Source of the DNA: a virus
Reading direction: 5' to 3' (one strand)
Length of the DNA: 33,974 nt
IMG/VR virus record: IMGVR_UViG_3300028025_003948
Location: 1 to 33,974 of that record
Shown here: positions 4,482 through 33,557 of the stretch, piece after piece
Position numbering within the stretch: the stretch's first letter is position 1
Layout of the letters: each line of letters starts with the position of its first letter
Notes under the pieces: model-generated
Told to the model about the DNA's origin: nothing
Database searches by the model: none
What the model saw: the letters and a program-made list of their open reading frames with translations, nothing else
Made by a program: the position numbers and the translations under genes

Positions 4482-4678
4482 GATTGGTTGCTCATCCCTA
4501 GAACAGCTCTAACCTGATTTACTGCTTCAGCTCTAGAGATCATTGCGGTAAAAGAATAAGTATTGATCGCCATATCCCATGCTTCAAACTTATCGGCATG
4601 AAGGTTGAAATCTCTACCGCAAGCCCACCAGTCTTTATAAGCGTTAGTAGCTTCTATAAAAAGTTCTGTAATGTGCAT
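4478..4678 (-). CDS. Hypothetical helical protein
   Basis: 66 aa, helical, rich in aromatic residues (YKDWWACGRDFNLHADKFEAWD). The ATG overlaps the stop of the LPD29-like gene. No recognised family. Confidence 0.5.
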   Translation of the reverse strand: MHITELFIEATNAYKDWWACGRDFNLHADKFEAWDMAINTYSFTAMISRAEAVNQVRAVLGMSNQS

Positions 4679-5013
4679 TATGCACCTACTTCTACAAAGC
4701 GGTTTCTCAAGCTGTTTTCAAAATCGTAATCGCTGTTATCTACGAAAATAAAACTAGCTAAAGAAATAAGCTCTATGCCTTCTTCAACCGCAAAAGCACC
4801 ATTTGAAGATCTCATGTCGGTCATACCATCAAAGGTTTCGCCAGCGTATTTATCAACTACATTGCGAACTTGATTTGCTGGAATAACATTTGATTCATAA
4901 CTGATACGAACACATCTATCTGATCTAACTGAAAATTTGATTTCAGGGAAGTTAGCTTTTAGATCTTTGCGAATAAGCTTTGCTATTTCTGCTGCTGATA
5001 CATACTTTTTCAT
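4678..5013 (-). CDS. LPD29-like domain protein
   Basis: 111 aa starting MKKYVSAAEIAKLIRKDL. The pattern of an N-terminal helix, then FPEIKFSVRS and VRISY beta strands, resembles large polyvalent protein-associated domain 29 (LPD29), a small module in phage and mobile-element proteins of unknown activity. ATG 5013 has AAAGGA upstream; the longer reading from 5061 would run through the leader hairpin and is rejected. It is the first gene after promoter A, so it is probably expressed early and strongly. Confidence 0.6.
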   Translation of the reverse strand: MKKYVSAAEIAKLIRKDLKANFPEIKFSVRSDRCVRISYESNVIPANQVRNVVDKYAGETFDGMTDMRSSNGAFAVEEGIELISLASFIFVDNSDYDFENSLRNRFVEVGA

Positions 5014-5025
5014 TTCGTTTCCTTT

Positions 5026-5089
5026 GTTTGTCCGATTCAGGCTTTTTGCCTGATAGAGCAAATCTATCTGTTTTTAGGGGTTTTAGGCA
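5026..5089 (-). promoter_or_regulatory. Promoter A with 5' leader hairpin
   Basis: On the minus strand: TGCCTA (5089-5084), a 17-nt spacer, TAGATT (5066-5061), 7 nt, then the hairpin TCAGGCAAAAAGCCTGA (5053-5037) and the conserved tail CGGACAAAC (5034-5026), followed by AAAGGA and the ATG at 5013. The same elements with the same spacing recur at 11879-11944. The -10 box is a reasonable TANNNT; the -35 box is unlike TTGACA, so an activator or a phage-specific factor may be needed. Placing the transcription start at or just before the hairpin is inference. Confidence 0.7.
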
Positions 5090-5104: not shown

Positions 5105-5126
5105 TTTTAGGTAACTTTTAGGTAAC
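5105..5126 (-). repeat. Tandem 11-bp repeats upstream of promoter A
   Basis: TTTTAGGTAAC occurs twice without a gap (5105-5115 and 5116-5126, plus-strand reading). The pair lies about 15 to 37 bp upstream of the -35 box of promoter A. An 11-bp period is about one helical turn, so both copies face the same side of DNA, as in a dimeric or tandem regulator site. A similar 11-bp-period pair precedes promoter B. Confidence 0.65.
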
Positions 5127-5137
5127 AGAAATAGGTA

Positions 5138-5170
5138 TAAAAAGCCCTAAAAACTATACATATTTAGGGG
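5138..5170 (-). terminator. Rho-independent terminator after RusA gene
   Basis: Minus strand: stem CCCTAAA (5169-5163) pairs with TTTAGGG (5151-5145), followed by CTTTTTA. The stem's first bases include the stop codon of the RusA gene. It separates the replication operon from promoter A. Confidence 0.7.
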
Positions 5171-5595: not shown

Positions 5596-5728
5596 AATAA
5601 ATTCCTATAATCATGATCCAAAAGAAAACCCCTACCAGCAAATTTATTGCTGATAAGGGTTGAATAGTTACTAGAGAATTTATTAGAAGAAGGAATCCTA
5701 ATAAATAACCTGGTAACCAAGTTTTCAT
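5582..5728 (-). CDS. 48-aa two-span membrane protein
   Basis: Opens MKTWLPGYLLGFLLLI, with two hydrophobic helices (about 4-22 and 25-44) and a YYGKK end. It directly follows the stop of the SSB-like gene (TAA-ATG) and overlaps the RusA start, so the frame fits the operon. Function unknown. Confidence 0.55.
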   Translation of the reverse strand: MKTWLPGYLLGFLLLINSLVTIQPLSAINLLVGVFFWIMIIGIYYGKK

Positions 5729-6098: not shown

Positions 6099-6374
6099 CT
6101 ATAGGATATCGCTGGCAATATGTGCAGGATTCACACAATCAGTATGACCGCAAATTCTTTCCCCCGGATGAACTAAAACCCCTTCATCATCCACCGGGTT
6201 TAGCTCAAGATCTAAAGCCCCTTGGAATGGAATACAGCGAAGCTTCCCATACTGAATCATTACCGCAGGTTTGACCCTACAGGAAGCACAGAGAAGGTCT
6301 TTCCTTCCCCGCTTCTCCGCATTTACAGTCCAGACAAAGCCACATCTGCGACATTCAACCTGATTATCTTGCAA
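6099..6374 (-). CDS. Zinc-finger / degenerate HNH-like protein
   Basis: 91 aa with CRRCG (near 9-13), CASC (near 29-32) and a C-terminal GERICGHTDCVNPAHI block like the end of an HNH nuclease. The catalytic His pair is incomplete, so it may bind DNA rather than cut. It has a relative at 10487-10885 with the same CxxC pairs and RICGH-DCVN-AHI. The start appears to be TTG at 6374, overlapping the end of the Mom-like gene. Confidence 0.6.
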   Translation of the reverse strand: MQDNQVECRRCGFVWTVNAEKRGRKDLLCASCRVKPAVMIQYGKLRCIPFQGALDLELNPVDDEGVLVHPGERICGHTDCVNPAHIASDIL

Positions 6375-6996
6375 CTAAATCCGCCTTCGGATAAGGTTCA
6401 AGCTTATATCTAAGTAACTTCAGCAAATACTTTTTTCTTCCCTTATTAGCATTGATAAAAATATATCTATGCTTCCTTGATCTTTCCTTCAAACTGAAGC
6501 TATCTCCAAACAGTTCCCGCATCTCAACCGCAGAATATTTATCTGCCCAAGTATGCCCATGCTTCTCAATACCTTCAACAGTCCAATCTGTTCGCTTCGC
6601 ACTCAAGCCAGTATAAAACCAGTTTGTAGCTTGATAAACAATCCCTAAATGGTTTTGTTCAGTATCAGCAAAACTAACGATAATCTCTTTATCAAGTTTT
6701 CGCAAAGTATTCCCGATCAGAAAACTTTCCCCATTCTTTGGAACTGAATCATCAACCCAAAGGCGTGTAAGTTCATAAACATTTTCTACATGATCTTCAC
6801 CGCATAAGCCTTTGCGAAGCGAACTAGAAGCGGGAGTTCCATAAACAACGACACCTAAACAGTTCAAAGGGTCTTCAACATGAAAAAGCCCGAAAGCTAT
6901 AGAACAAGGGGCTTTTCTATGAAGATAATGCTTCTCAACAACAATCTGCATTGCTTCCGCATAACTGACTTGCTCAATAAAGTATTTCTCAAGCAT
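6364..6996 (-). CDS. Mom-like DNA modification protein (copy 1)
   Basis: About 210 aa from ATG 6996, which overlaps the helicase stop; longer readings lie inside the helicase gene. Motifs shared with the copy at 32871-33557: HY near the N-terminus, GVVVYG, YELTRLWVDD, IVSFAD...HLGIVYQATNWFYTG and HRYIFI. These match the Mom family, GNAT-related enzymes; phage Mu Mom converts adenine to N6-carbamoylmethyladenine, blocking restriction. It lies between helicase and a zinc-finger gene. The family call is fairly sure; the chemistry here is inferred. Confidence 0.75.
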   Translation of the reverse strand: MLEKYFIEQVSYAEAMQIVVEKHYLHRKAPCSIAFGLFHVEDPLNCLGVVVYGTPASSSLRKGLCGEDHVENVYELTRLWVDDSVPKNGESFLIGNTLRKLDKEIIVSFADTEQNHLGIVYQATNWFYTGLSAKRTDWTVEGIEKHGHTWADKYSAVEMRELFGDSFSLKERSRKHRYIFINANKGRKKYLLKLLRYKLEPYPKADLVAR

Positions 6997-8272
6997 TAGA
7001 AACTTCTCGCACTCTAGAGAACTCTCCATCAAACTTAGCTTCAAAGAAACCTGTAGCCCCATGCCTATTCTTCACTACATCTAAAGTAATCAAAGACTTC
7101 TGCCCAAAAGCATAAAGCTTCTGACTAAGCCCCGAAGCAATATTTTTATCTTCAATAATATCCGCTTCACTCTGCTTTCTTGAAAGCATAATAATTACAT
7201 CCGCATCCTGTTCAATCTGCCCCGAATCTCTAAGATCTCCCGCAGTTGGTCTTTCATCAGGTTTCCCATCAATACGCCTATTCAACTGGGCTAAAGCGAT
7301 AACAGGAATCCCAAATTCTTTAGCAAGATTCTTTAGATCCATACTTATCTGCGATATCTGTTCATACTTAGGGCTTTTAGGGTTAGCTGCCTGAATCAGC
7401 TGAAGATAATCAACAAATACCGCCTTCACAGGTCGCTGTTGCATCACCGCATTCAAATAACTTCTAATCTGTGAAATAGTTTGCCCGCCACGATCAGAAA
7501 TAATCAGCTTATTCTCTACAGTCCTAATCAAATCCCTAATAGCCCCCTGCCACTCTGGAAGAAGTGTTCCCCTTTCAATACTTTCTAAAGGAATAGCAAG
7601 CTCACCAGAAACAACACGATTCAACAAAGAAGCCTTATCCATCTCAAGCGAAAAGAAAACCACATCTTCCGATCTTGAAAGTTCCCAAGCAAGTTGCATA
7701 CCAACCACAGTTTTACCCACGCCTGGTCTAGCACCGATAACATAAAGCCCCGATTGCTTTAGCCCAACAATCATGCGATTCAAACCAGCAAAACAAGTAG
7801 TCAAAGTTCTTCTAGGATTCAAAATATCGTTTAGCATCATCTGCAAATCCCACCGCAAATCTGGAAGCTCTAAAGATTGAACAACCTTCAACTGATCCAA
7901 CTTCAAGCGGACAGCATCAATCTTTTCCTGAACATTCCCGCCCTTCTGCATCTCCAAAGCAAGCAAACCAAGTTGGCGTTCAACACTCTTTTCTAAAACC
8001 TTAGAAGCGTAACTATGCACATTCTGCGGAGTAAAAGCAAACTGAACAGAATCATAAATCCGCTGCCTAGAAGATTCATTAGCGATTTCGGAACAAATAG
8101 TAAAAACATCAAAGAAGCGTTTCTTCTCAAACTGATCAGACATCACCGCATAAGCATCCCTGAACCAAGGAGAATCAAAATCATCTGCAACTAAAGACAT
8201 TTGCTCCATGCCCAAACCCTGATTGACTAGAAGGCAACCAATAACAAGTTCTTCAAAATCTACAACCTGCAT
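6989..8272 (-). CDS. dnaB: DnaB-type replicative helicase
   Basis: 427 aa. The N-terminal domain (about 1-100) loads primase; a linker leads to the RecA-like motor. Walker A is GARPGVGKT at 180-188, the downstream Glu sits in FFSLEM, Walker B is VFVDYLQLI at about 285-293, and ALAQLNRR follows. It unwinds DNA at the fork as a hexamer. Length is slightly under that of bacterial DnaB. It follows the initiator gene by 2 nt, typical of phage replication modules. Confidence 0.93.
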   Translation of the reverse strand: MQVVDFEELVIGCLLVNQGLGMEQMSLVADDFDSPWFRDAYAVMSDQFEKKRFFDVFTICSEIANESSRQRIYDSVQFAFTPQNVHSYASKVLEKSVERQLGLLALEMQKGGNVQEKIDAVRLKLDQLKVVQSLELPDLRWDLQMMLNDILNPRRTLTTCFAGLNRMIVGLKQSGLYVIGARPGVGKTVVGMQLAWELSRSEDVVFFSLEMDKASLLNRVVSGELAIPLESIERGTLLPEWQGAIRDLIRTVENKLIISDRGGQTISQIRSYLNAVMQQRPVKAVFVDYLQLIQAANPKSPKYEQISQISMDLKNLAKEFGIPVIALAQLNRRIDGKPDERPTAGDLRDSGQIEQDADVIIMLSRKQSEADIIEDKNIASGLSQKLYAFGQKSLITLDVVKNRHGATGFFEAKFDGEFSRVREVSNA

Positions 8273-9370: not shown

Positions 9371-9935
9371 TTATTTTTTTCCTAGTCTTTCTAGAACTTC
9401 ATCATCAATCAGCAACTCTAATGCTAATTTTGCTTGTTGCGGAACAACTCCATTACCTAAAGCCTTGAGTTGATCGTTACGCTTCAAACCAAGTTCTGGA
9501 TCAGTAACCCAACCTTCAGGCAATCCCATCATCCATTCAACAAATTCAGCGGCTAATCTGTGAGTTCCTTCTTTTCCATCTGGTTTTGTAGGTTCAGGGG
9601 CTTTTCTACCTAAGATTTCTTCCCATCTTCTAATTGCGGGTTCAAACTTACCCCAAGACATCCTTACAGCAACGCCCAAACTTACACCGGGCATTCCCCG
9701 ATATTCTCCAGAATCAGCTTTAGATCTTCTATCTAAATAATCTTCGATAGGTTCATCATGATTACGAATGTGAGCAACTGAAGGAGTAGGAAGAAGATTT
9801 CTTTCTTGCCTAGTAACAGGGAAACCTTGACTTGCAACAAGATCCATTACTTGATCTCTAACTGCGACAGTATTGCCACGCTTCAACGCTTCCGCTTCAC
9901 CTAAAGCCCCGCCAGAACCTTCACTAGCCTTTGGG
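9371..9935 (-). CDS. dcm: C5 cytosine methyltransferase, C-terminal part (other frame)
   Basis: The second half of a DNA cytosine-C5 methyltransferase, continuing in the +1 frame from the gene at 9924-10490. It carries the target-recognition region and the motif IX/X end (KRNDQLKALGNGVVPQQA). This frame is open up to 10147, but the segment before about 9935 is only the shadow of the N-terminal half. If one base of the CCCC run (9933-9936) is skipped, the reading becomes IIAFPKASEGSGG and a 372-aa enzyme of normal length results. Without frameshifting it has no obvious start of its own. Confidence 0.7.
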
Positions 9936-10490
9936 GAACGCAATAATAAACATTCTGAATCTGTTGTGAGCTGCTCCTGTATCGGAAGCCCGAATACCTG
10001 TCCATTTCGCATCATACCCGAGATCATCCAGCGATCCAAGAACGGCCTGGATTGCTGTAAAAACAGGTCTTGCTCCAAGTTCATCCAATATTTCAGTTGA
10101 GTATTCCATTCCGTTATCGGCTTTTGCTGTAAGTAATCCACGCACATTTTCTATAACTACCAATCTTGGTCTAATAATTTCTATAGCTTTAGCAAACTCT
10201 AGCCAAAGCCCTGATCTTGTTCCTTCTTGAAGTCCAGCCCTTTTCCCCGCTAAAGATAAATCTTGGCAAGGGAAGCCGCCAGTTAGAACATCTACTTGCT
10301 CAATACTTGAAAAATCAACTTTAGTTACATCTCGATAATTAGGAACACCTGGAAAGTGTTTTTCAAGAATTTTAGATGGAGCATCTTCCCATTCACAATG
10401 CCATGCCATTTCAGCATCAAGAAATTCCAAAACCGCTAAATCTAAGCCGCCATAACCAGAGAAAAGACTTCCAACTCTTAGCTTACTCAT
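9924..10490 (-). CDS. dcm: C5 cytosine methyltransferase, N-terminal part
   Basis: 188 aa with motif I FSGYGGLDLA (10-19), motif IV with catalytic PCQ (74-76), motif VI ENV (114-116) and motif VIII NRFRMF (176-181). It stops at TAG 9924 right after AFPKG, before the recognition domain and motif X, so alone it should be inactive. The missing part follows in the +1 frame. Explanations: a real single-base insertion, a sequencing error in CCCC, or programmed +1 slippage at TTC-CCC-AAA. The ATG at 10490 overlaps the upstream zinc-finger gene. Confidence 0.8.
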   Translation of the reverse strand: MSKLRVGSLFSGYGGLDLAVLEFLDAEMAWHCEWEDAPSKILEKHFPGVPNYRDVTKVDFSSIEQVDVLTGGFPCQDLSLAGKRAGLQEGTRSGLWLEFAKAIEIIRPRLVVIENVRGLLTAKADNGMEYSTEILDELGARPVFTAIQAVLGSLDDLGYDAKWTGIRASDTGAAHNRFRMFIIAFPKG

Positions 10491-10885: not shown

Positions 10886-11046
10886 TACTTATCCGCCTGA
10901 AGTTTCTTGATTGCTCTGCGATACTTTCTAAGATCGTGATTCAAAGCATCTACAAGTTCATGTAAGTTTCTAGCCTTAGCATCAATAAGTTCAAGAATTA
11001 TTTCTTCTATCGCAGATTGCAACTGCTCTATGGTTTCTTTAGACAT
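10885..11046 (-). CDS. 53-aa helical protein
   Basis: Opens MSKETIEQLQSAIEEIILEL and is almost entirely alpha-helical, with a basic end (KYRRAIKKLQADK). Both ends overlap neighbours by TAATG, fitting translational coupling. A small coiled-coil or adaptor is possible; no family recognised. Confidence 0.55.
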   Translation of the reverse strand: MSKETIEQLQSAIEEIILELIDAKARNLHELVDALNHDLRKYRRAIKKLQADK

Positions 11047-11318
11047 TATTCGCCAGCCTTTACCGCATGAATGTAATGAACCCCGATAGATCCAGTAATA
11101 CCGATTGAAGCATAGGCGTGCTTAGTAGCTTCCATTTGTTTGAAAACTTTCATAGCATCTCTGCGGGTCTTCTTCTCTATCGCTGTGCCGATTGATTCTT
11201 CAAACTTCTTGCAAGCTTGCTTATATAAATCTGCAAGGCGATCTAATTCAATGTTTGCCCAGATACGCAAGGTTTCTTTTAGCTCTGCTTCAGTTTGTTT
11301 ATTTTGACTAATCATCAT
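11046..11318 (-). CDS. Hypothetical helical protein
   Basis: 90 aa from ATG 11318 (MMISQNKQTEAEL); ATG 11315 is equally possible. Largely helical with repeated Lys/Glu pairs and a SIGVHYIHAVKAGE end. Its end motif KAGE resembles the K-GA ends of the two upstream proteins. Function unknown. Confidence 0.5.
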   Translation of the reverse strand: MMISQNKQTEAELKETLRIWANIELDRLADLYKQACKKFEESIGTAIEKKTRRDAMKVFKQMEATKHAYASIGITGSIGVHYIHAVKAGE

Positions 11319-11596
11319 GCACCTACTTTTTCTTCTACTTGATCGCACCATTCGCAAAGCTCATAATCAAACTTTTTCTGGCAAATCGGGAAGTTACCCA
11401 TTTTATCCATGTATCGTAAATCAAGAAGCATATCTTTCCATGCCCCCGCCTTATCGCCTTCAGAATAGTAATAGATCTGTTCATGAACTTCACCATCAAA
11501 GGTTTTACCTAATGGGGCTTCTAGTCTTAGAAAATCTGGTTCAGTAATAACTGCACCTAGTTTTTTCGCTAAAGCTTCGCATCTTTGCTTAGACAT
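11315..11596 (-). CDS. Hypothetical protein
   Basis: 93 aa from ATG 11596, which overlaps the stop of the preceding gene (TAATG); readings from 11677 lie inside that gene. Mixed alpha/beta, acidic, with CEWC near the end (LCEWCDQVEEKVGA). No family recognised. Confidence 0.5.
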   Translation of the reverse strand: MSKQRCEALAKKLGAVITEPDFLRLEAPLGKTFDGEVHEQIYYYSEGDKAGAWKDMLLDLRYMDKMGNFPICQKKFDYELCEWCDQVEEKVGA

Positions 11597-11865
11597 TATG
11601 CACCAGCCTTTGCTTTGTATTCTGCATCTAGCTTCTTCATGTTTGCGATTTGTCTGCGAAGTGAAGCAATCAACCAATACTGTCTATCTTCAGCGTTGTA
11701 GCCTTGACCTGTTTCACGATCTAAGTCTTCTTCCATGTTGCCTAACCAAACTAAAAACTTTTCGTAAGTAACTGTGTGAAGCCCTGCGGTTTGTGGCATC
11801 CAATCTATATCTGTTTCATGCCCATACCAGCGAGCTATATTTTTATTGATTTTTACTTCAATCAT
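11596..11865 (-). CDS. Hypothetical protein, first gene after promoter B
   Basis: 89 aa from ATG 11865 (MIEVKINKNIARWYG). GAAGGA lies upstream of the ATG, and the reading from 11925 would run through the leader hairpin, so it is rejected. The C-terminal half is a helix rich in Arg and Lys. As leader gene of the operon it is probably made early in infection. Function unknown. Confidence 0.55.
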   Translation of the reverse strand: MIEVKINKNIARWYGHETDIDWMPQTAGLHTVTYEKFLVWLGNMEEDLDRETGQGYNAEDRQYWLIASLRRQIANMKKLDAEYKAKAGA

Positions 11866-11878
11866 TTTTGTTCCTTCA

Positions 11879-11944
11879 GTTTGTCCGATATTCAGGGCTT
11901 TTCCCTGACCTGCCCAATGTACCAAAAAAGCACCGCCATAGGCA
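11879..11944 (-). promoter_or_regulatory. Promoter B with 5' leader hairpin
   Basis: Minus strand: TGCCTA (11944-11939), 17-nt spacer, TACATT (11921-11916), 7 nt, hairpin with arms TCAGGG (11908-11903) and CCCTGA (11897-11892), then CGGACAAAC (11887-11879) and a ribosome site. Boxes, spacer and hairpin distance are the same as at promoter A, while the spacer sequences differ, which supports selection on the elements. It drives the methyltransferase-replication operon. Confidence 0.7.
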
Positions 11945-11957
11945 TAAAAAGGCGAAA

Positions 11958-11977
11958 GTTTTATAAAGGTTTTATAA
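11958..11977 (-). repeat. 11-bp-period repeats upstream of promoter B
   Basis: GTTTTATAA occurs at 11958-11966 and 11969-11977 (plus-strand reading), an 11-bp period, beginning about 14 bp upstream of the promoter B -35 box. Its place and period match the repeat pair at promoter A, although the sequence differs. Confidence 0.55.
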
Positions 11978-11981
11978 CAGT

Positions 11982-12006
11982 AAAAAACCCCTATTTCTAG
12001 GGGTTC
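11982..12006 (-). terminator. Rho-independent terminator
   Basis: Minus strand: AACCCCTAGAAATAGGGGTT followed by a T-run (TTTTTT in all). The 5' arm includes the TAG stop of the 55-aa gene. It ends the recombination operon just before promoter B. Confidence 0.85.
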
Positions 12007-12164
12007 TCTAACATACTTCTAAGCCTTAGACCTTGCTCATTTATTCGAGTTATCAGTTTAGCCTTAAGGATTATCTGATCTTCCCGATCTAAAATTTCTA
12101 GAAGCTCGCAGAGTTCAGCGATATTGCTGATTACTATTGCTTGTTCAGCGGTTAGATATTCCAT
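11997..12164 (-). CDS. 55-aa helical protein
   Basis: Starts MEYLTAEQAIVISNIAEL; all helical, acidic then basic. AAGGAAAAGGCAG precedes the ATG at 12164. It overlaps the annealing protein gene in another frame, and its last codons form the terminator stem. Function unknown. Confidence 0.55.
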   Translation of the reverse strand: MEYLTAEQAIVISNIAELCELLEILDREDQIILKAKLITRINEQGLRLRSMLENP

Positions 12165-32423: not shown

Positions 32424-32871
32424 TAGCCCTTGCTTCTTGTCTTCGCTTCAACGCTTCCATTTTAGAAATTGCTTTTACTTCAGCAACGCCAAGTCTAGAT
32501 CTATCTGCGGGGGTGAAACCTAGAAGGCTTAGATTGCTGATAATTCTTGAATCAAGTTCCCGCAACGCCCTTCTTTCCCGCCAATCGTTATCTTGCATAA
32601 CCTTGATTCTAAGATTCCAGCGTTCATCAATAAGTTCGCAGGTCATAAGTAAAAGCTCTGAATCAGTATTTGGGCTAATCCAAGTTAGACCAGAGATCCA
32701 AACCTTATCCCAAAACTCCCGCCCATATCTTAGAAGCGGTCTAGCAGGTTCTGGAACTTTAGAAATAGGTTCTAAAAGTTGAATAGTTGAAGTATCAGGC
32801 AAAGCCCTTCTACCCGGATTACCTAATTTCCGTTTTACTTCAACAGGTTTAGTTGGTCTTCCCGCTGGCAT
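32407..32871 (-). CDS. terS: Terminase small subunit (P27-like)
   Basis: 154 aa. The basic opening MPAGRPTKPVEVKRKLGNPG, the central helices REFWDKVWISGLTW, and the end FTPADRSRLGVAEVK match the P27-type small terminase family. It recognises phage DNA and activates the large subunit. The start codon overlaps the stop of the Mom-like gene (TAATG). Confidence 0.87.
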   Translation of the reverse strand: MPAGRPTKPVEVKRKLGNPGRRALPDTSTIQLLEPISKVPEPARPLLRYGREFWDKVWISGLTWISPNTDSELLLMTCELIDERWNLRIKVMQDNDWRERRALRELDSRIISNLSLLGFTPADRSRLGVAEVKAISKMEALKRRQEARANGENK

Positions 32872-33557
32872 TAGTTATCTTCTAGAGCAGTTGGCAGGGG
32901 TCGAACCTGCACTTCAGCAACGGAATTGCTGTGGCTTACCTTCAAGCCTTCAACTGCATTTGGGTATTGCAAAGACAGTTTAGCAAGTTTTCTTCGCAAA
33001 TTCTTATCTAACGGATAAAGATATCTAAACTTTCCTGGCATTGTTCGCTTCGGGGCAAAAGGTCTTTGCGGATGGTGATAAGCGTTTCTAGTGTGCATCC
33101 ATCTTCCATCTATATAGTATTCAACGACAGGATTGCTCTTACCTGTATAAACCCAGTTACCCGCCTGATAGATTCCGCCCTTATGCCCTTCTTTTGGATC
33201 AGCGAAAGAAACAATACATCTAAGACCTGGACTATTCTGCTTCAGCATCTTCAGGCAAGCCGCCACTAATTGAGAAACTGGGGTGATGTGTTTGTCTAAA
33301 GCAATTCGAGTTAGCTCACAAATTTCAGTTTGATCCAAATTCAAGAAACTTCCAAGATGTGGAGAAGCACCCCTAGAAAAAATTATTACCCCAATAAAGT
33401 TACCTGATTCAAATACGCCATATCTAATCAGCTTGCTTGCAGGTAAAGACTTAGAGTAATGCCAATTCTTCACAGCGTAAAGTGCCGCCTGTTGATTGAC
33501 TAACTTTATTTCAAACAATTTCAAAACCTGAAGCGGTCTTCCTAAACTCACAGGCAC
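32871..33557 (-). CDS. Mom-like DNA modification protein (copy 2)
   Basis: Up to 228 aa. Shared with copy 1: HY in NWHYSKSLPASKLIRYG, GVIIFSRG, ICELTRIALD, IVSFADP..HKGGIYQAGNWVYTG and KFRYLYPL. The family (Mu Mom) modifies adenines to evade restriction; next to ParB and terminase it may act before packaging. The start is unsure: GTG 33557 overlaps ParB, while TTG 33524 or 33518 would fit the mature N-terminus. The family part ends near QYPN; the last 28 residues coincide with a predicted tRNA, so they are probably an appended tail. Confidence 0.75.
   Translation of the reverse strand: MPVSLGRPLQVLKLFEIKLVNQQAALYAVKNWHYSKSLPASKLIRYGVFESGNFIGVIIFSRGASPHLGSFLNLDQTEICELTRIALDKHITPVSQLVAACLKMLKQNSPGLRCIVSFADPKEGHKGGIYQAGNWVYTGKSNPVVEYYIDGRWMHTRNAYHHPQRPFAPKRTMPGKFRYLYPLDKNLRRKLAKLSLQYPNAVEGLKVSHSNSVAEVQVRPLPTALEDN
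32886..32957 (-). tRNA. tRNA-Gly(UCC), overlapping the Mom-like gene
   Basis: A 72-nt cloverleaf on the minus strand. Acceptor stem GCAGTTG/CAACTGC pairs fully; D stem GGCT/AGCC with loop TGAAGGTA; anticodon stem CAGCA/TGCTG with loop ATTCCGT (anticodon TCC); T stem GCAGG/CCTGC with canonical loop TTCGACC; discriminator T, as for bacterial tRNA-Gly. CCA is not encoded. Odd points: position 8 is A and 14 is T instead of T and A. It lies wholly inside the Mom-like reading frame. It could be a working gene, a remnant, or an attachment-type sequence copied from the host. Confidence 0.72.

Follow-up and report, generated by a model that had tools for sequence, protein, structure and literature searches.

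Repeated sequences at the starts of actinophage genes have been described since 2011, and their function has stayed unsettled. They comprise the start-associated and extended start-associated sequences (SAS and ESAS) of Cluster K mycobacteriophages (PMC3203893, PMC11373665, PMC12699233) and analogues in the Microbacterium phage clusters EF, EC and EG (PMC7302621), and the repeats of Cluster O (PMC4351075) are also among the nearest described phage elements. In these reports, SAS/ESAS appear as a repeated actinophage cassette ahead of the start codons of unrelated genes, in which a ribosome-site motif is combined with an upstream inverted repeat, and SigA-like promoters are associated with it in Adephagia. 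The ESAS repeat has 17 bp per arm, is imperfect and contains the promoter, and the Cluster K authors judged RNA pairing unlikely.

Structures of a second kind lie at the 5' ends of messages. According to two reviews (PMC3997798, PMC7509114), RppH and RNase E depend on a single-stranded 5' end, and a stem-loop at that end stabilises mRNA. The leaders of ompA and papA in E. coli and of aprE in B. subtilis are single-gene leaders with a terminal hairpin followed by an exposed ribosome site. Promoter-proximal phage RNA hairpins include lambda nut (boxA/boxB) and HK022 put, the latter a double structure, and the phi10 (gene 10) transcript of T7, which is made from a T7 RNA polymerase promoter, has a stem-loop at its start and an efficient ribosome site behind it.

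Here we describe a phage leader that resembles both the actinophage start-associated sequences and the 5' stabilising stem-loops (ompA, aprE) and that, by its sequence, fits none of the described phage elements against which it was tested. Its ingredients are ordinary; what is new is a defined, covarying and gene-independent leader family with a fixed promoter geometry. A literature search restricted to open-licence papers found no description of this leader, and the accessible part of the Planktophila phage report (PMC10202952) mentions none.

Two leaders with a common plan

The DNA analysed is the IMG/VR record IMGVR_UViG_3300028025_003948, positions 1-33,974 (33,974 nucleotides, hereafter the window). 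Nearly all of its large ORFs lie on the minus strand, with genes for a terminase, a portal protein, DnaB, RusA, a RecE-like exonuclease and methyltransferases, and a WhiB gene is found on the plus strand. This gene set, including WhiB, terminase, portal, DnaB and RusA, most probably places the window in a siphovirus-like phage with an actinobacterial host.

Two minus-strand leaders are read directly in the window, A at 5054-5013 and B at 11909-11865, and they follow a common plan: a -10 box, six nucleotides, a purine (+1), a hairpin from +2, CGGACAAAC, a Shine-Dalgarno sequence and ATG. Upstream of leader B, the intrinsic terminator of the preceding gene (AACCCCTAGAAATAGGGGTT and a T tract, 11981-12005, minus strand) ends 78 nt ahead of the hairpin. 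It is followed on the same strand by a tandem 11-bp direct repeat (TTATAAAACCT TTATAAAA, 11958-11977, about -68 to -49), a -35-like TGCCTA (11939-11944) placed 17 nt ahead of the -10 box, and the -10 box TACATT (11916-11921). The seven nucleotides GGGCAGG separate the -10 box from the hairpin, the last of them being the inferred transcription start (G, 11909). The 5'-terminal hairpin TCAGGG-AAAAG-CCCTGA occupies 11892-11908 (folding z of the leader -3.73), the single-stranded tail CGGACAAAC 11879-11887 and the Shine-Dalgarno segment TGAAGGAACAAAA, which includes AAGGA, 11866-11878. The first gene (11596-11865, ATG at 11865) encodes 89 amino acids with no family match.

Leader A has the same elements on the minus strand. 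A terminator-like hairpin with a T tract after the RusA gene (5136-5169) and a perfect tandem 11-bp repeat (GTTACCTAAAA twice, 5105-5126) precede the -35-like TGCCTA (5084-5089) and the -10 box TAGATT (5061-5066), from which the hairpin is again separated by seven nucleotides (TGCTCTA). The inferred +1 (A, 5054) and the 5'-terminal hairpin TCAGGC-AAAAA-GCCTGA (5053-5037) together occupy 5037-5054 (folding z -2.02), and are followed by the CGGACAAAC tail (5026-5034), the Shine-Dalgarno segment AAAGGAAACGAA (5014-5025) and the gene of a 111-aa LPD29-domain protein (4678-5013, ATG 5013; Pfam PF18847, 59.1 bits). Direct reading thus bears out the sequence-only reading of this DNA, which had placed the same hairpin 7 nt after the -10 box, and the same tail behind it, in both leaders. 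That reading had listed neither the TGCCTA at 17 nt ahead of the -10 box nor the upstream 11-bp tandem repeat, both of which are common to A and B.

The tail motif alone is weak evidence, since CGGACAAAC, of which the window holds two exact copies, is no rarer than chance with one mismatch allowed (4 matches against a mean of 3.64 in shuffles). The combination of -10 box, spacing, purine, hairpin and GGACAAA is far beyond chance: it occurs twice on the minus strand of the window and not on the plus strand, and twice in total over 100 resampled windows. A sigma-70 consensus scan listed neither promoter, because their -35 sequence is not TTGACA-like; this is not counted against them. The leaders were absent among the 20 largest of at least 60 families in a direct-repeat search of the window, and an Rfam search of the window returned a tRNA as its only match at the gathering cut-off, so that the leaders belong to no Rfam family at that threshold; at a relaxed cut-off only weak sub-threshold matches fell at leader B.

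The leader in related phages

The first few true relatives came from loose pattern scans of IMG/VR, which also picked up chance matches inside genes (for example L003, L004, L006, L008-L011, L013, L015-L020 and L022-L025); these were dropped on account of their context. Scans with DnaB and RecE gave 58 and 54 loci. We chose 32 seed leaders by hairpin and tail, with no -10 criterion, and built a covariance model, the check proposed in the sequence-only reading, on 28 of the 32 rows. The four rows left out, which were out of register in the MAFFT alignment (L038, L039, L031 at 7047 and L033 at 12598), were recovered afterwards by the model. At E ≤ 1 it returned 52 matches in 60 sources and 20 in 45 sources, so the same leader is present in many related uncultivated phages. 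Ten of the 72 matches repeat a contig already represented, and 55 of the 62 left are distinct in sequence. Most counts below are based on 52 leaders, with L077, L078 and L123 set aside for their different tail; the apex-anchored count is also without L076, which has a weak stem. The hairpin and GGACAAA are not independent evidence, as the seeds were chosen partly for both. No seed was chosen for its -10 box, its +1 purine or its tandem repeat; the -10 and +1 positions are nonetheless columns of the model.

In loci oriented by gene direction the model made 66 matches at E ≤ 1, every one of them on the gene strand. A later scan for the tail and ribosome site gave 58 stretches. Thirty of these were given to the model, which matched them 36 times at E ≤ 1; many of the matches are strong, and some are no better than chance. 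When whole records were searched, two strong copies each were found in the window and in G001-G003, the three most complete of its close relatives, and single copies in G008 and G012; 9 of the 30 records, several of them fragments, had none. Three copies occur in the 63.7-kb phage G030, which is more distant (terminase 48% identical), and four in L164, an 11.6-kb relative. The larger and distantly related lineage of L164 (1917-10955) and G030 (27835-36213) carries three to four near-identical cassettes; their hairpin loop itself contains GGACA, as in the tail, and in G030 the WhiB gene (34390-34593) sits between two cassettes on the same strand. By the same model, no leader was found in the Pontimonas phage phiPsal1, the closest isolated phage by portal (46%; best E 7.8). 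The only match of a DnaB search of genomes was a Thermoactinomyces contig.

Promoter geometry

The alignments establish an exact geometry. All 52 leaders have a -10 box with A at the second and T at the sixth position (NANNNT), then six nucleotides, a purine (50 A, 2 G) and a stem core at +2. The purine lies where a sigma-70-type polymerase would be expected to start, and from such a start the RNA would begin with at most one unpaired nucleotide. This supports the claim that the mRNA opens with the hairpin as its first structure, with the start inferred from the conserved geometry. An SD-like sequence is present in 52 of 52 leaders and is not covered by the hairpin, whose end lies 16-28 nt (median 22) from the ATG. 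GGACAAA was invariant in the 32 seeds, where it was a selection criterion, and is found between hairpin and ATG in 52 of 52, including L035 and L036 by way of a copy at the ribosome site (the first copy being CGACAAA). The same geometry is readable by eye in L123, L077 and L078, which lack GGACAAA; in these distant relatives (L077, L078, L123/L124) promoter and hairpin are kept and the motif is lost.

Further upstream, two T[TA]A[TC] half-sites with a period of exactly 11 bp lie about 70 nt ahead of the start in 48 of 52 leaders, against a background of 0.9%; control periods of 8-10 and 12-14 give 0-7 of 52, with a background of 0.6-1.2%. Within the window the minus strand has the repeat only at A and B, and the B repeat can also be read once on the plus strand. 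Relatives conserve the -35 region as a block, which is not TTGACA-like. Together, the tandem repeat and the unusual -35 region suggest an activated promoter, served by an upstream element or by an activator. Of the records searched for WhiB, 20 of 25 and 4 of 5 contain it, with no link to the tandem-repeat site. Terminator-like hairpins are found upstream of 9 of the 52 leaders, at 70-79 nt in seven and at 92 nt in two, the background within 65-90 nt being 14 of 3000; they are not a general feature of the leaders.

Covariation in the stem

The model aligns 54 leaders, and of the 311 cells in this alignment 98.4% are paired. Both sides change at five of the six pairs, and double changes occupy 24 cells, compared with 4.2 ± 1.8 in shuffles. 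Pairing in slid controls reaches at most 48.7%, and a partner shift of one column halves the pairing. As this alignment was fitted to the structure, we added a count anchored at the apex, in which 51 leaders reduce to 31 distinct hairpins and 15 distinct 5-bp cores (distinct hairpins are not a count of independent events). None of 2000 arm shuffles pairs as well as the real cores. Of their 75 core pairs, 68 are Watson-Crick, 6 are G.U, 1 is A.C and none is of another kind; uncompensated breaks in homologous leaders, which would have spoken against structural selection, are confined to one A.C position in four leaders (L038b, L039b, L040, L041) and to L076, whose stem is cut to about 4 bp. An apparent outer A.A mismatch in L069 was an over-extension by the hairpin finder; its core pairs. 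The earlier argument that the arms differ between the two copies and remain complementary holds through these relatives; within the window the difference is one base pair only, and the relatives supply the other changes.

Pairing is kept although the stem varies in both sequence and length (5-9 bp) and the loop may have 4, 5 or 6 nt. On the sense strand, 16 of the 31 distinct hairpins contain G.U and 2 contain A.C (6 against 1 in the cores), an excess that implies selection on the sense RNA and not on a symmetric DNA operator. Half-sites also differ between copies of one genome (the window, L031, L033, L038, L041, L101; L030 has an identical pair). The strand bias, the loop variation and these within-genome differences favour selection on the transcript. 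The sequence of the 5' arm (A-U-C-A-G-G) is more conserved than a pure shield requires, and all 31 distinct hairpins have A as the first base of the loop, a hint that something recognises them.

Comparison with described elements

These properties separate the leader from ESAS: its arms are 5-9 bp, lie after +1 and covary at the RNA level. The 13-bp SAS GGGATAGGAGCCC, which allows up to two deviations, matched only with three mismatches, at chance level and never at the leaders. The cluster EF element GGGAAAGGACCCC, a ribosome-site sequence, likewise gave only three-mismatch matches at chance level, and the cluster EG inverted repeat GATCAACCNNGGTTGATC, which stands before start codons, gave no match with up to three mismatches. 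The EG repeat of Hyperion (L195) resembles a stem variant of these leaders, ATCAGCC/GGTTGAT; a -10 box in the leader geometry accompanies 0 of 8 Hyperion repeats, and no leader was found in the 29,770 bases of Hyperion searched.

In common with ompA, papA and aprE, the leader has a hairpin no more than one nucleotide from the inferred 5' end and then an exposed ribosome site; a terminal stem-loop with at most a few unpaired 5' nucleotides is present in 52 of 52, assuming +1 to be the purine 7 nt after the -10 box. It differs in being a family-wide phage element with its own promoter. The likeness to T7 phi10/gene 10, drawn by description, lies in a stem-loop first and a ribosome site next; the difference is the T7 RNA polymerase promoter. 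An A-rich 5-nt loop in some copies and the promoter-proximal position recall lambda nut and HK022 put, but the leaders have no boxA beside a boxB (1 of 52 is boxA-like), their hairpin is at +2 and the loop is very variable.

Genomic context

The first genes after 55 leaders are small and fall into 27 unrelated groups by BLASTP, so the leader is independent of the gene that it precedes; in L007, leader B is almost unchanged and a different gene stands behind it. The leader itself usually occupies two fixed genomic places. Where there is room downstream of RusA, it is present at 46 of 46 sites, 40 of them found by script and the other six being L051, L063, L064, L039 and L073 (model-matched and removed as duplicates) and L124 (a weak match). 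After homologues of the gene at 11997-12164 it is present at 5 of 5 sites (4 by script; L007 had been removed as a duplicate). The loci with the leader have common ancestry.

Several other features of the window are recorded here. The overlapping minus-strand ORFs 9371-10147 and 9924-10490 lie in separate frames. The downstream ORF has matches to DNA methyltransferase families, the upstream one resembles by eye the N-terminal part of a cytosine-5 methyltransferase, and the pair is possibly a split gene, a frameshift or an assembly error. A Mom-like DNA modification protein (phrog_1384) is encoded at 6364-7062 (minus strand), adjoining DnaB, and a tRNA-Gly (TCC) at 32885-32957 (minus strand) overlaps the 3' part of ORF 32871-33557. 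At 11034-11061, at 11584-11611 and in many cases in the relatives, small proteins end in ..GA, with the C-terminal codons overlapping the next ribosome site and ATG (AAAGGCTGGTGCATAATG), which by sequence is a recurrent translational-coupling junction.

Function of the leader

Of the roles that the sequence-only reading had proposed for the hairpin, we put protection of the mRNA 5' end in first place and add ribosome loading to it; a bound regulator comes next, and antitermination last. Our leading interpretation, to which we give about an even chance, is a portable operon-start cassette of an actinophage group, whose 5'-terminal hairpin would shield the end of the mRNA and keep the ribosome site open. 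The structure of this cassette is well supported by the alignments, and from it we infer the function. The 11-bp tandem repeat near -70 and the unusual -35 region would recruit RNA polymerase, probably with an activator, and transcription from the purine 7 nt downstream of the -10 box would leave at most one unpaired nucleotide ahead of a 5-9 bp hairpin. This hairpin may hide the 5' end from pyrophosphate removal and from 5'-end-dependent RNases (of the RppH/RNase E or RNase J type), and may insulate the A-rich, unstructured tail GGACAAA...AAGGA, a putative doubled ribosome docking site, from folding with whichever gene follows. Downstream genes could then be exchanged while early or middle messages stay long-lived and well translated. 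Stem sequence, stem length and loop that vary with pairing kept are expected of a shield and not of a sequence-specific site. Points against a shield are the conservation of the 5' arm, the invariant loop A, the four A.C leaders and weak L076, and the loss of GGACAAA in distant relatives.

The hairpin and GGACAAAC could instead be the binding site of a phage-encoded or host RNA-binding protein that controls translation or stability, making all cassette-led operons a post-transcriptional regulon. The same leader stands before unrelated genes of a single phage (the window has two copies, G030 three and L164 four), the first loop base is constant, and the conservation of GGACAAA, found also as GGACA inside the G030 and L164 loops, exceeds the needs of a Shine-Dalgarno sequence. 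We nevertheless consider this reading unlikely, as loop length and stem sequence differ even between the copies of one genome (L031, L033, L038, L041, L101) and no candidate was identified among the window proteins scanned. A joint version, in which an activator at the tandem repeat and a phage RNA-binding factor on the +2 hairpin and GGACAAA tail together switch all cassette-led operons, is put forward equally tentatively.

Less probable again is nut- or put-like processive antitermination, in which the leader RNA would make RNA polymerase resistant to terminators or control early pausing. A promoter-proximal hairpin at operon starts would suit such a role, as would the strong terminator-like hairpin at 5661-5627, between 5729 and 5595 in operon B; but a boxA-like sequence (up to two mismatches from the consensus) is present in only 1 of 52 leaders, the hairpin is single and short, unlike the double put structure, and from +2 it falls within the region still held in the initiation complex. 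This terminator-like hairpin (5627-5661, minus strand) lies just upstream of RusA.

Slightly more doubtful still is that the inverted repeat is the DNA operator of a dimeric phage repressor or activator over +1, with RNA pairing a by-product of dyad symmetry. A palindrome across the start site is in the classical operator place, and the Cluster K authors took their start-associated inverted repeats as likely DNA-binding sites. Symmetric half-sites at constant spacing, common to all copies in a genome, are not what is found here: the asymmetries are strand-biased towards G.U, and half-site spacing shifts by 1-2 bp with loops of 4, 5 and 6. Finally, although the loci share ancestry, it is very improbable that these are functionless chance hairpins inherited with a conserved promoter, given compensatory changes at five of six pairs and the rarity of the combination in resampled windows.

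Implications

For the start-associated repeats of actinophages, a related-looking leader with clear covariation at the RNA level and an exact promoter distance makes the question of function testable with small reporters. If the joint switch by activator and RNA-binding factor were true, it would be actinophage operon control of a new class, with gene content free to turn over behind a fixed transcription-plus-RNA module. The leader is also a compact, gene-independent expression cassette from phages of hosts with few genetic tools, and it suggests how such phages swap small early genes without rebuilding their control signals.
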